NCBI RefSeq assembly: GCF_030252325.1
Contig: NZ_CP126981.1
Location: 5,038,434 to 5,102,433 of the forward strand
Direction of reading: 5' to 3'
DNA length: 64,000 nucleotides
DNA from: Candidatus Mycobacterium wuenschmannii
GTDB lineage: Bacteria > Actinomycetota > Actinomycetes > Mycobacteriales > Mycobacteriaceae
Part shown: piece by piece, positions 28,576 through 40,071 of the stretch
How positions within the stretch are numbered: position 1 is the stretch's first letter
How the letters are laid out: each line of letters starts with the position of its first letter
Program-made: the position numbers and the translations under genes
Notes under the pieces: model-generated
Told to the model about the DNA's origin: nothing
The model's input: only the letters and a program-made list of their open reading frames with translations
Databases searched by the model: none

Positions 28576-28640
28576 TTGTTTGTTTCAAGCTAGCCGAGAT
28601 TTCCGTGTGCAGCCACCCGAGGCGGACGTAATATCCCGCC

Positions 28641-29393
28641 ATGGCTGCAGGCTTGCCGGCCGAACTGGTCGAGGAGACCGCGTTGACGCTCAGCAGCGTC
28701 AGTCAGGTCACGCTGCCGCCCGAGCATTGGCCGGCCGTGGAACGGACCCTCGCCGCCACGAACCTTGCCGTGGACACCAACGACGCCGATGCCCTGCGTG
28801 CGGCGCTGGACGAATTGCAGCGCTTCGGCCTGACGCCGCGCTACCGCGAGGACTTCCCCATAACGGGCGCCTCGCCGGTTGCTGACGCGCCACTGCCCGC
28901 CCCGCCGCCGATTCACGGCGCCCCGCCACCGATGGCCCCCGCCCGACCCGCCGGAGCCGGCCGGATATGGCTGGGCGCAGGTCTAGCGGCCGTCGTCGTG
29001 CTGGTGACGATCGCTGTCCTGGGCCTGCTGAGCTCCACAGAGCACAGCAGCGCTCCGCACCCGCAGTCCACGTCGTCGTCCCACACGGGAGCGACGTCGC
29101 CGACTGGCCCGACGTCGGCGAGTCCGATCGAGACGCCGACCCAACCGACCAGCAGTGGCGGGACTTCCGTCGCGGTCGGTCTGCTCGCGGCTGCTGCGGT
29201 GGTGCTCGCCGTTGTCGTCATCGTGGTGCGTCGGCGATCCCAGCGACACCATCCGCCGCCGGCGCATTTCGTCGATGCGGGCGGACCAGTCGCATGGCCG
29301 GTCCGACCCGCGACCACCTTTGCGCCCAATGAGCTGGTGGAGCTTGCCAATCGCACCGTCGACCGGCTCGTTGACAAGGGCGGAACACGGTGA
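28641..29393 (+). CDS. CATRA-associated small protein-like domain with two membrane segments
   Basis: 250 residues. Residues 1-75 form a small helical domain (LPAELVEETALTLSSV, LPPEHWPAVERTLAAT, then DALRAALDELQRFGLTPRYR) whose pattern resembles the CATRA-associated small proteins (CASP) of actinobacterial conflict systems. A Pro-rich stretch leads to a membrane helix (110-130), a Ser/Thr/Pro-rich loop (131-175), a second helix (176-197) and a basic cytoplasmic tail. Both ends should be inside. Its stop overlaps the GTG of the next gene (GTGA), so the pair is translationally coupled. The family call is from remembered motif similarity and the gene pairing. Confidence 0.6.
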   Translation: MAAGLPAELVEETALTLSSVSQVTLPPEHWPAVERTLAATNLAVDTNDADALRAALDELQRFGLTPRYREDFPITGASPVADAPLPAPPPIHGAPPPMAPARPAGAGRIWLGAGLAAVVVLVTIAVLGLLSSTEHSSAPHPQSTSSSHTGATSPTGPTSASPIETPTQPTSSGGTSVAVGLLAAAAVVLAVVVIVVRRRSQRHHPPPAHFVDAGGPVAWPVRPATTFAPNELVELANRTVDRLVDKGGTR

Positions 29394-30850
29394 CGGTGGC
29401 GATCACCGATCAGGCACTGCATGTGTTGGTATTCGCCCGACTCAAACCCGAAACCGGTTATCGCGCAGAGGGTCTGACGGCCGCCTGGGCGGCTGCGGGG
29501 CAGGTCCGTATCTCGCAGCCGCTCGATACGGGCGTACCGATCGACCTGCCTGACGAGCTACCGGACGGCGACGTGTTCTTCCGCGTCGTTGCCGGCAAGG
29601 CCGGGGTCGAGGGCTCTGACAGCGCAATCGCCTTCGTCGCCCATGACGTGGTGGGAATCGTCGTCCGATTGAGTGCGAGTGGCAACGACGGCTGGGCCGA
29701 GCTGTCCGAAAGCTGGCGTGCCGCATTTGATCCCGGATCCTTCGGCGACTTGATGGGTGTCGTCGAGGTATTCCTCGGCGCCGCAGACCAATTGGCGGCA
29801 GACCGGCCGGAGGCGGTCGCGTCTGCGCTGGGCGACGAGGTGGGACTGGAGTCTTCCGCCCTGGTCGAGCCGGGAATCACGTTGTGGACCAAGGAGTTCG
29901 GCTGGGGATCGCGGGTGGTGGGACTCGCGGCCACCGCCGCCATTGCCACCGCCGAGTCGTGGTGCTCGATCAGCGGCACCCGTGAGGACGCCGGGCAGTT
30001 GGTGCGTTATTTCATGCACGCCAGCAAGCTTCGCTACGAGGCGAGCGTGTTCAAGCAGGACATCGACGAGTTGCGCCGACAGGAGCGCGCACTGGACGAC
30101 GGCCTCGCCGAATTGTTCGCGCTGCACCAACGATTCGAGGCCGCCGGTGCGGGGGCCGACGAACTGATCGACGCGCAGAGTCGGCTGGGTCGTGCGCAGG
30201 GCGATGCGGCCGGGCTGCTGATTTCGATCACCCACCTGCGCGATTTGCGCCAGACCGTGGAGATCGCCGCGCACAACCTGCGCGCCAACGAGCCCGCCCA
30301 GATCGAGTCGACGGCGATCGCGCAGTCGTTCTTCGCCCGAGAACAGAAACTCGCCGAATGGCTCGACGGCCAGGCGGGTCACGAGATCGCGTATCTGCAG
30401 TCGTGTCGTGAACGGGTGGGCGAGGCGCAGAAGCTCACCGAGTTGCGCCTACAGCAGCTGTCGGCAGCGAACGCTCGAACGGCCAACTGGCTCAGCGTGT
30501 TACAGACCAGCCTGCTGGCCGCTCCGCTCGGCGCGCTGAGCGTGGCGACGACCCTGGGCACCCACATCACCGCGCCCGTGACCGTACGGGTGGCGGTGAT
30601 GGCGCTGGTGGGGTCGATGACTTTACTGGCGCCGCTGCTCGCCTTCCGCTGGATTCACGGCTACCGCTGGCCGGAGATCGGCGGCGTCGCGGTGATCGGT
30701 GGCTGCATCGGCTGGGTTATCGCCGTCGCCGTATCGGCGGCGGCGCCGTTGACGATCGTCGTCGCCGCGGCGGTGCTCGGCGCGACGCTGTTGGGCGCGA
30801 TCGCCGTTTTGGTGAACGGTCGTAGCAGTAGGATTTCGTCAACGGCCTGA
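29390..30850 (+). CDS. CATRA-domain-like protein with coiled coil and four membrane helices
   Basis: 486 residues. The N-terminal about 195 residues (QALHVLVFARLKPETG, SAIAFVAHDVVGIVVRLS, GWAELSESWRAAF) look like the CATRA domain, named for its association with caspase-like and TPR proteins in bacterial conflict systems. A long helical, probably coiled-coil region follows (about 205-360), then four membrane helices (about 367-389, 397-419, 429-450, 452-475). Coupled to the preceding gene by GTGA. The layout, a sensor-like domain joined to a membrane bundle, suggests a membrane effector or scaffold. No caspase or NTPase gene is adjacent, so this would be a minimal form. Confidence 0.58.
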   Translation: MTVAITDQALHVLVFARLKPETGYRAEGLTAAWAAAGQVRISQPLDTGVPIDLPDELPDGDVFFRVVAGKAGVEGSDSAIAFVAHDVVGIVVRLSASGNDGWAELSESWRAAFDPGSFGDLMGVVEVFLGAADQLAADRPEAVASALGDEVGLESSALVEPGITLWTKEFGWGSRVVGLAATAAIATAESWCSISGTREDAGQLVRYFMHASKLRYEASVFKQDIDELRRQERALDDGLAELFALHQRFEAAGAGADELIDAQSRLGRAQGDAAGLLISITHLRDLRQTVEIAAHNLRANEPAQIESTAIAQSFFAREQKLAEWLDGQAGHEIAYLQSCRERVGEAQKLTELRLQQLSAANARTANWLSVLQTSLLAAPLGALSVATTLGTHITAPVTVRVAVMALVGSMTLLAPLLAFRWIHGYRWPEIGGVAVIGGCIGWVIAVAVSAAAPLTIVVAAAVLGATLLGAIAVLVNGRSSRISSTA

Positions 30851-36771: not shown

Positions 36772-37770
36772 GTGAAAGTCTTCACAGCTTTGTATGGCCT
36801 GACCGACGCAGCCGAGCGCGCGCGGGAGCTTCGCGATGCCGGCGCCGGCGGCGTGGCCACCTTCGAAGGCCCGCACGACGTGTTCGCACCGCTGACGCTG
36901 GCGGCGACCGTCCCCGATCTCGAGCTGATGACCAATGTCGCGATCGCGTTCCCGCGCAACCCGATTCATCTGGCCCACCAGGCCTACGACCATCAGTTGC
37001 TGAGCTCGGGCCGGTTTGTTCTCGGTCTGGGGACCCAGGTCCGCGCGCAGATCGAGAAGCGGTTCGGCGCCGACTTCGACAAGCCGGTGGCCCGGATGAC
37101 CGAGTTGATCGCCGCGTTGCGAGCCATCTTCGCGGCCTGGCACTCCGGTGAGCGCCTGGATTTTCGCGGCGACTACTACCGGCACACGCTGATGACGCCG
37201 ACCTTCAACCCCGGCCCCAATCCCTACGGCCCGCCACCGATCTACGTCGGCGCCCTGGGGCCGCGGCTGACCCGCGCAGTCGCAGAGCACGCCGACGGCC
37301 TGCTGGTGATGCCGTTCGGCTCCAAGCGATTCCTGCACGAGCACACCATGCCGATCGTGCGCGAGGGTCTGCAGGCCGCCGGACGCGGCACCGGCGACCT
37401 CACCGTGCTGCCCGAAATCATCGTCTCTGCAGGCGAATCCGACGCCGAACTCGAGGCGGCCCACGCACGGACCCGGGCGCTGCTGGCGTTCTACGGCTCG
37501 ACGCCCGCCTATCGTCCGGTGCTGGCCGCGCACGGCTGGGAGGATCTGCAACCCGAACTGAATGCACTGTCCAAACAGGGCCGCTGGGCGGACATGGGCG
37601 GTCTGATCACCGACGAAGTCCTGCACACCATCGCCGCCTGCGGCACACCCACCGATGTGGCCCGGCACATCAGGGACCGTGTCGACGGCGTTGCCGACAC
37701 CGTGTGCCTGTATCAGGCGGCGCCGATCGGCCTGCAGACGCTGGCCGCGATCATCGACGAATTGCGTTAG
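36772..37770 (+). CDS. LLM-class F420-dependent oxidoreductase
   Basis: 332 residues. Luciferase-like fold: ATFEGPHDVFAPLTLAA, LELMTNVAIAFPRNPIHLAHQAYD, LGLGTQVRAQIEKRFGADFDKP and PPIYVGALGPRLTRAVAEHADG. The pattern resembles a mycobacterial F420-dependent subfamily (MSMEG_2256-like, from memory). The GTG start follows AAGG. Its end overlaps the convergent Rv3169-like gene by four bases. Substrate unknown. Confidence 0.82.
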   Translation: MKVFTALYGLTDAAERARELRDAGAGGVATFEGPHDVFAPLTLAATVPDLELMTNVAIAFPRNPIHLAHQAYDHQLLSSGRFVLGLGTQVRAQIEKRFGADFDKPVARMTELIAALRAIFAAWHSGERLDFRGDYYRHTLMTPTFNPGPNPYGPPPIYVGALGPRLTRAVAEHADGLLVMPFGSKRFLHEHTMPIVREGLQAAGRGTGDLTVLPEIIVSAGESDAELEAAHARTRALLAFYGSTPAYRPVLAAHGWEDLQPELNALSKQGRWADMGGLITDEVLHTIAACGTPTDVARHIRDRVDGVADTVCLYQAAPIGLQTLAAIIDELR

Positions 37771-38891
37771 GGCGCAACCGTTAACCAGTCTGCGAAGCCG
37801 GACGGGTCGTGGCGCCCCAGCGCGCCGTGCTCGTAGAGGCCCCAGCCCTCGACCGGCTCCGCGTCACCGTCGCGGCACACCGCGCGCCCGACGTGATCGA
37901 TCACCCCGAAGCCCGACCGCCCGATGATCGCCGGGTCGTTCATGTCGTAGGTCAGCCGCTCGGTGAACTTCTCGCCCTTCCACACGCCGTGCAGCCAGTC
38001 CGAGTCGCCGCCGTATCCGCCACCGACGTGAATCGGCACCGGCAGCTTGGATTCGACGTCGAAGTGCACCGGCGTGCCGTCGGGCCGGGTGGCGTCGATC
38101 GTCGCGCCGGTGGGGATGCGGGTGCCCGAGCGGTAGTGGATCTTGACGCGCGGCCAGCCCAACTGCTCGACGCGGCCGTCGCGCCAGATCCGGGTGCAGT
38201 CGTTGAGCGAGCGGAACCCGTCCGGCGCCTCCTGGATGATCAGCACGATCGCGAAGTCCTGGAAGGCGATCGGCACGTACAGCCACCACATGCCCTCGAA
38301 CGGCGGGTCGGCGGGCCGGCCGGCGGGCTCGGCCTCACCGATCGGCCGGATGCCCCAGGACCGGTCGCGGCTGCCGATCCACGTCTTCGGGTCGACCGGA
38401 ATCTCCTTGCCGTCTACCACGATCCGGCCGCTCCAACTGCCGAGCTGGGCAAAGCGCTGGGCGTCCAGCGTCACCCGGGTGCCGGAACGCATCAGGTGCG
38501 GCTGCTCCTGGACGACGTCGAACAGGCCCTCCCAGGTGAGATCGGCTGCGATTCCTTCGGTTTCGTCGAGGGTGATGCGCAGCTTGTGCAGCGGGTCGAT
38601 GACCTCGACGCGGTAGCCGTTGACGTGCTGGTTCAGCCGGTCCTGGTCGATGGCGTCGGAGAGGTGCACCGCGGTCTGGGTGTCGCCGCGCCGGATGAGC
38701 AGGAAGGCGTCCTTCACCCCGAGGTTGGGGTAGTAGCCGATGCCGCTGATGACGAAGATGTCGCCCGTGCGGTCGTGGGCGTTGAAGTAGGAACGGTCGT
38801 AGAAGTTGCGGTCCGAGGAACCCGGCCACGCGATGGGCTGGGGAACCTGGTGTACCGGGAACTCGTCGAGCGGGCCCAGTGCATGCGGCAT
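37767..38891 (-). CDS. Rv3169-like conserved protein
   Basis: 374 residues, the length of M. tuberculosis Rv3169 as I remember it. Its position next to an Rv3168-like phosphotransferase and an Rv3167c-like TetR matches. It is beta-rich and soluble, with many Trp and Tyr residues (DRNFYDRSYFNAHDRTGDIFVISGIG is too long a motif to be chance, and SRDRSWGIRPIG and GMWWLYVPIAF follow) resembling the lipocalin-like AttH/tocopherol cyclase fold. The reaction is unknown. It starts exactly after the stop of the upstream gene, so the two form an operon. Confidence 0.8.
   Translation of the reverse strand: MPHALGPLDEFPVHQVPQPIAWPGSSDRNFYDRSYFNAHDRTGDIFVISGIGYYPNLGVKDAFLLIRRGDTQTAVHLSDAIDQDRLNQHVNGYRVEVIDPLHKLRITLDETEGIAADLTWEGLFDVVQEQPHLMRSGTRVTLDAQRFAQLGSWSGRIVVDGKEIPVDPKTWIGSRDRSWGIRPIGEAEPAGRPADPPFEGMWWLYVPIAFQDFAIVLIIQEAPDGFRSLNDCTRIWRDGRVEQLGWPRVKIHYRSGTRIPTGATIDATRPDGTPVHFDVESKLPVPIHVGGGYGGDSDWLHGVWKGEKFTERLTYDMNDPAIIGRSGFGVIDHVGRAVCRDGDAEPVEGWGLYEHGALGRHDPSGFADWLTVAP

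Positions 38892-40071
<1,180 letters not shown>

Follow-up and report, generated by a model that had tools for sequence, protein, structure and literature searches.

CATRA proteins form a poorly understood bacterial conflict family, probably directed against viruses. One system built on them is called the 'caspase-dependent CATRA ternary conflict system' in PMC8195603, where Kaur et al. 2020 and Burroughs and Aravind 2020 are cited for it. Our literature search found no experimental study of CATRA systems. Here we describe a CATASP and CATRA gene pair from Candidatus Mycobacterium wuenschmannii, located in a 64,000-nucleotide stretch of contig NZ_CP126981.1 (positions 5,038,434 to 5,102,433, hereafter the window). 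The pair resembles the caspase-dependent system in having a protein that combines CATRA-N and CATRA-C with a swappable C-terminal module, a CATASP gene next to it, as at most loci, and a patchy distribution; in the window the position of the C-terminal module is taken by four membrane helices. Unlike that system, the window CATASP appears split, the genome has no CHAT or C14 protease match, and no TPR match lies adjacent. The explanation we prefer, and hold with about even confidence, is a membrane-tethered CATRA variant that functions without the usual CHAT or C14 protease, in which CATASP would directly restrain the CATRA membrane effector. The arrangement suggests that the pair works at the cell membrane and perhaps also uses it for sensing.

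The gene pair and the CATRA C-terminus

The two genes are complete open reading frames (ORFs) on the plus strand. ORF1 (28641..29393, 250 residues) encodes the CATASP-type protein, consisting of a three-helix bundle, a membrane hairpin and a C-terminal helix, as judged from PF20271, a 12-row alignment (A2) and an AlphaFold2 (AF2) model. ORF2 (29390..30850, 486 residues) encodes CATRA, assigned through PF20269, PF20270, NF038357 and a second AF2 model. The frames are coupled by a GTGA stop/start overlap (29390..29393, plus strand), which recurs in loci L005 and L059 and so is found in three of the four mycobacterial loci, L006 having a 4-base gap instead. The ORF1/ORF2 layout recurs across relatives and is not due to chance, and the observation of a two-gene CATASP/CATRA membrane pair is confirmed.

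Against Pfam, ORF1 matched CATASP (PF20271; E 9.4e-8, 32.3 bits, cut-off 29) over residues 17-63, corresponding to profile positions 6-52 of 86; in the six-frame genome search this match scored 28.4 bits, slightly below the cut-off. The unmatched end of the profile is consistent with a displaced C-terminal helix. ORF2 matched CATRA-N (PF20269; E 8.5e-16, 58.9 bits, cut-off 27) over residues 10-169 and CATRA-C (PF20270; E 2.1e-25, 90.4 bits, cut-off 24.6) over residues 204-343, and the NCBIfam model NF038357 spanned residues 8-343 (E 6e-50, 170.6 bits, cut-off 90); NCBIfam gave no above-cut-off match for ORF1. On these profile matches the pair belongs to the CATRA and CATASP families, as an earlier note on this DNA had proposed from its reading of the two N-terminal domains. 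The note's two membrane helices in ORF1, four at the C-terminus of ORF2 and GTGA coupling were likewise borne out by hydropathy and coordinates. Some relatives carry the NCBI names 'CATRA conflict system CASPASE/TPR repeat-associated protein' or 'CATRA system-associated protein', so automatic annotation already knows the family and membership is not in itself new. PADLOC returned no match for the pair or five neighbouring ORFs; it was also blank on the Streptomyces CATRA and CHAT proteins, which indicates that it has no usable model for CATRA.

Within ORF2 the CATRA-N alpha/beta domain occupies 29417..29896 and the CATRA-C helical region 29999..30418. The 'effector' position is filled by a predicted four-helix membrane region (residues 368-474, 30491..30811), all three features lying on the plus strand. 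Hydropathy gave four hydrophobic 19-residue windows here at a threshold of 1.5, three of them also at 1.6, and the AF2 model (pLDDT 83, pTM 0.68) has helices at these windows, the first membrane helix extending a 77-residue model helix (316-392).

The nature of this C-terminal region varies among relatives. In nine CATRAs scanned with Pfam we observed two CAP12/Pycsar TIR modules, one trypsin-like, one GT4-conflict and one phosphorylase module; the other four, a membrane-type CATRA among them, had no C-terminal Pfam match. Judged from these domain matches, the CATRA C-terminus is a swappable effector slot, in which membrane helices would be one effector type of several. Across the order, CATRA-C was matched in 20 of 397 genomes, 18 of them above cut-off, giving 21 non-mycobacterial loci once the window's own locus and two below-cut-off matches (G246, G450) were excluded. 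At six of the 21 (G302, the second G316 locus, G477, G493, G391 and the second G469 locus), the CATRA C-terminus contains three or four hydrophobic segments. Together with a Streptomyces CATRA discussed below, they rule out CATRA membrane helices as a distinguishing feature.

Several further C-termini were observed. Eight CATRAs (L037, L038, L041, L043, L044, L051, L053 and L054) share a similar C-terminal module, some 160 residues long and by eye resembling a nucleotide-cyclase relative, which Pfam left unnamed in the two that were scanned (L037 and L038). L055 (7649-9811) is a natural single-chain fusion of CATASP, CATRA and a phosphorylase (PNP_UDP_1), which fits joint action of CATASP and CATRA; a CHAT match lies about 1 kb from it. 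A CATRA profile searched against the sequences of solved structures gave a best E of 0.24, with none significant.

The membrane hairpin of CATASP

The N-terminal bundle of ORF1 (residues 1-66, 28641..28838) corresponds to a match of a soluble-CATASP profile (residues 4-71). It is followed by membrane helix 1 (residues 109-127, 28965..29021, hydropathy 2.63), a 49-residue loop (29022..29168) that is 63% Pro/Ser/Thr and contains no Lys or Arg, membrane helix 2 (residues 177-195, 29169..29225, hydropathy 3.15) with an Arg-rich stretch behind it, and a C-terminal helix (residues 226-247, 29316..29381), all on the plus strand. The loop is predicted to be extracytoplasmic because basic residues flank the hairpin. 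The AF2 model has helices at residues 7-20, 27-46, 49-61, 108-134, 174-202 and 229-247, and was excluded from fold searches as a poor model (mean pLDDT 64.8, pTM 0.37). In A2 the C-terminal helix is invariant in 20 of 22 columns, the N-terminal bundle in 25 of 66 and the loop in 4 of 49.

This organisation is shared by all 15 mycobacterial-type CATASPs, the window's included: each has exactly two hydrophobic helices, separated by a loop of 26-79 residues with 42-63% Pro/Ser/Thr and basic flanks. A hydrophobic helix was found in none of the 19 other CATASPs (17 free-standing, one fused and one from Streptomyces). Membrane segments in both partners had been put forward as the peculiarity of the locus; the claim holds for CATASP and fails for CATRA.

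The conserved C-terminal helix, a hint of a split CATASP that the earlier note overlooked, was compared with soluble CATASPs in two ways. A profile from 23 of these matched every one of the 15 in two main pieces, the second lying past the hairpin. A matrix of the soluble C-terminal helix (18 rows, leave-one-out recovering the own helix in 15) scored highest at a window 7-11 residues short of the C-terminus, at the last helix, again in 15 of 15; the window was equalled by 0-4 of 2000 shuffles in 14 sequences and by 23 of 2000 in G702. The profile omits the L055 fusion and P0051, and P0052-P0056 are in the profile and not in the matrix or the membrane-helix count. From these comparisons the C-terminal helix appears to be the displaced last helix of soluble CATASPs, and the CATASP domain to be interrupted by a membrane hairpin. 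Two points qualify the evidence. In the set of 15 sequences the N-terminal piece reaches independent E values of 1.6e-9 to 2e-14, and the piece after the second membrane helix is weak alone (E 2.5e-4 to 0.15). In addition, 12 of the 15 share one motif, which leaves about four independent motifs, that of G702 being weak. Since the hairpin sits before the last CATASP helix, both halves of the domain are predicted to be cytoplasmic, at the membrane. To our knowledge it is unusual for a soluble regulator to become transmembrane through a membrane hairpin inserted in a small adaptor domain.

A variation on the loop was seen in an Acidimicrobiia metagenome-assembled genome. The frame L008 (2-1021), upstream of a related CATRA, contains about 135 extra, possibly folded residues amid Thr/Pro-rich stretches; behind these come one hydrophobic helix and a C-terminal helix like that of the mycobacterial CATASPs. 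Another hydrophobic stretch is in a different frame at the contig end, where the gene must be incomplete or broken in frame. Pfam gave only a mucin-like match under cut-off and NCBIfam none; the extra sequence is possibly an outer sensor domain.

On the explanation we prefer, CATRA would be a cytosolic alpha/beta and helical scaffold whose C-terminal four membrane helices serve as the effector, and CATASP would sit in the inner membrane with both halves cytoplasmic and its Pro/Thr/Ser-rich loop outside. The conserved C-terminal helix of CATASP might bind CATRA and keep the membrane effector inactive, a restraint suggested by conservation and predicted topology. By analogy with other conflict systems, envelope disturbance, or cleavage of CATASP at its exposed loop, could release CATRA, and the freed protein may oligomerise, permeabilise the inner membrane and arrest or kill the infected cell. 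The defence role of the pair, like its trigger, we infer from that analogy.

Protease, neighbouring genes and distribution

Searches of the whole one-contig genome for CHAT and C14 caspase domains returned no match. Ten neighbouring ORFs were compared with Pfam; seven matched, all metabolic enzymes, three were unmatched, and none had a caspase, CHAT or TPR match (TPR at E <= 0.001 and looked for locally only), in agreement with the earlier statement that no caspase or TPR gene is adjacent. A home-made CHAT profile of 15 domains found nothing near the pair in the window, L005, L006 or L059. Its controls, L039 and two L040 genes, were matched but are mostly non-independent (one L040 gene being the gene of a training domain), and it misses a weak Pfam match at G477 (L046), making it less sensitive than Pfam. 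For G702 and Mycobacterium sp. 1245805.9 the search covered five neighbouring ORFs each, and Pfam at E 1e-4 showed neither CHAT nor C14 among them. In M. stellerae (G144) no C14 was matched, and the single CHAT match lies on a contig other than that of the pair.

Elsewhere in the order sample, a CHAT match lies within 2 kb at all six membrane-type CATRA loci, five of them over cut-off. Over the 21 loci together, 15 have an above-cut-off CHAT or C14 match within 5 kb; the CHAT match at G477, at a distance of 0.7 kb, scores under the cut-off, and at one of the two G316 loci the nearest CHAT is at 5.6 kb. No protease is nearby at the remaining four (G172, one of two G469 loci, one of two G363 loci, and G489). 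The missing protease, which had also been considered peculiar, thus sets the locus apart from membrane-type CATRAs elsewhere but is not unique to it. What distinguishes the locus is the membrane-bearing CATASP together with the missing protease only.

It is possible that a protease acts in trans. An unrelated or highly diverged host enzyme could cleave CATRA, or else CATASP, possibly at the outer loop, making the pair part of an ordinary proteolytically triggered CATRA system with its protease gene elsewhere. We regard this as unlikely: the genome is without CHAT or C14 and no CHAT was found around the pair in L005, L006 or L059, even though PMC8195603 terms the canonical systems caspase-dependent in the passage cited, M. 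stellerae has its CHAT match, and our searches covered CHAT and C14 proteases only.

The neighbouring genes differ among the four mycobacterial loci read. The window has acyl-CoA dehydrogenase, SDR, epimerase and isocitrate lyase genes; M. stellerae, by eye, a thioesterase-like gene and thrS; G702 methionine synthase, an AHSA1 protein and an AMP-binding enzyme; and Mycobacterium sp. 1245805.9 a BadF/SIS protein, a beta-lactamase-family protein and a 1003-residue ORF. The last (L006, 11760-14771) is convergent with the CATRA pair, lacks a Pfam or PADLOC match and is possibly patatin-like by eye. Within the window, two long ORFs overlap on opposite strands (37767-38891 minus and 37809-38930 plus), neither matched by Pfam.

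The window is the end of a one-contig 5.10-Mb genome with a single CATRA-C match. In genus samples, CATRA-C was found in 2 of 148 genomes and matches to CATRA alignment A3 (32 rows) in 3 of 396, and an A3-type search of an even draw of the family matched 1 of 401; all three are sample counts, those for 396 and 401 genomes with only three candidates scored per genome. Named carriers of CATRA were Mycolicibacterium stellerae, Mycobacterium sp. 1245805.9 and Rhodococcus aetherivorans, joined for ORF1 by Mycobacterium paraterrae. Pattern-limited searches of genome contigs gave no locus with the single protein and three with A3. The patchy distribution that had been suggested is therefore upheld, and the contrary case, a universal pair with housekeeping neighbours, was not what we found: the neighbours look housekeeping, but the pair is far from universal.

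Phages gave no match, and neither did viral contigs in a pattern search; the only plasmid relatives were on two Streptomyces plasmids at about 26% identity. In seven related genomes the downstream epimerase has a counterpart 75-84% identical; none of 12 other window genes tested was found within the 17-20 kb covered, save for SDR matches of 27-33% in three genomes, and G017 has a close SDR counterpart on a different contig. No clean empty insertion site was shown among the seven. The G+C content of the pair is 68.2% against 66.9% for the window, and third-position G+C is 0.79 and 0.82, compared with 0.85-0.91 for six neighbours; this is a mild hint at most.

Leaderless mycobacterial transcripts have TANNNT close to the start and no ribosome-binding site. 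A -10-like hexamer, TAATAT (28629..28634, plus strand), read by eye, stands six bases 5' of the ATG of ORF1 and may belong to a leaderless promoter. TANNNT is present 6-8 bases upstream of the CATASP start at all four mycobacterial loci, with no evident ribosome-binding site (by eye and without a control; the G144 start was picked by aligning to the other N-termini). If the leaderless arrangement holds, it is possible that the pair brings its own promoter to every landing site.

In a tree of 33 CATRAs, 14 rows from Mycobacterium, Rhodococcus, Acidimicrobiia and metagenome proteins form one clade with support of 100/99. Some membrane-type, CHAT-linked CATRAs are its neighbours with weak support (84/54), and other membrane-type CATRAs (G302, the second G316 locus and G477) are placed among those with soluble effectors. 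Of two trees, the second includes 9 of the 38 CATRA relatives; neither has G363a, G363b or G489, and the first also lacks P0033. Five of the 14 clade rows (the window, G144, G702, Mycobacterium sp. 1245805.9 and the incomplete L008) have a partner CATASP read from the same DNA, and row P0002 has CATASP P0050, with a contig of 86,043 bases for both. A membrane-type ancestor may have lost its protease and had its CATASP rebuilt.

The CATRA and CATASP domains might also serve a non-defence membrane-stress or ion-handling module, with the outer loop sensing the envelope. Housekeeping-looking neighbours at all four loci, the near absence from mobile elements noted above and a CorA/Mrs2-like architecture, discussed below, would suit such a role, but a patchy pair found at four different locations looks more like accessory genes than like core physiology, and the swappable effectors on relatives' CATRA C-termini (TIR, trypsin-like, GT4-conflict, phosphorylase) point to conflict, and so this role too seems improbable to us. 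A bolder form of our preferred explanation is a protease-free, two-protein outside-in death switch, in which the CATASP outer loop would sense phage entry or envelope damage and gate a CorA-architecture CATRA pore, lethal or growth-arresting for the cell, via the hairpin and a re-assembled cytosolic CATASP domain; the extra loop residues of L008 would fit a sensor, and we consider this version speculative and distinctly unlikely. That the pair is a decaying CATRA remnant being lost after its protease is very unlikely, since against its patchiness (3 of 396) and the missing CHAT and C14 matches stand two intact frames, a GTGA overlap at three of four loci, the near-invariant C-terminal helix of 12 CATASPs, TANNNT before the start at four of four loci and the persistence of the type as a clade that spans Mycobacterium, Rhodococcus and Acidimicrobiia.

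Comparison with known systems

CorA proteins have two membrane helices and a GMN motif. The CATRA model is similar to CorA/Mrs2 in its alpha/beta domain, helical bundle and very long predicted helix running into the first membrane helix. The window CATRA differs in having four membrane helices to CorA's two, and GMN was not seen by eye in alignment A1 (22 rows including the window's). Membership of the CorA family (PF01544) was rejected on sequence: a Pfam scan at E <= 10 did not list it, and hhalign against a single host CorA sequence gave a probability of 0.03%. The other structure matches listed by VIA-align were unrelated helical bundles (gp41 mimetics, MukF, SPX and designed bundles). The resemblance to CorA/Mrs2 is architectural only, and is a hint drawn from the model. 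CorA/Mrs2/ZntB channels include SAM-AMP-activated CRISPR CorA effectors (PMC12255297, PMC10600005).

Our preferred reading, a membrane-tethered pair in which CATASP would restrain CATRA, makes the locus useful for study: as a natural two-gene version without the usual protease it would be the smallest testable unit for asking whether CATASP is an inhibitor and CATRA a membrane effector. For comparison, a plasmid of Streptomyces sp. NBC_00376 (L003) likewise has CATASP followed by an overlapping CATRA with C-terminal membrane helices. It differs in that its CATASP is a soluble protein of 119 residues without a membrane helix, and a divergent gene for a 1294-residue TPR-CHAT protein is adjacent. 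The Streptomyces plasmid therefore holds the full set of TPR-CHAT, soluble CATASP and membrane CATRA.
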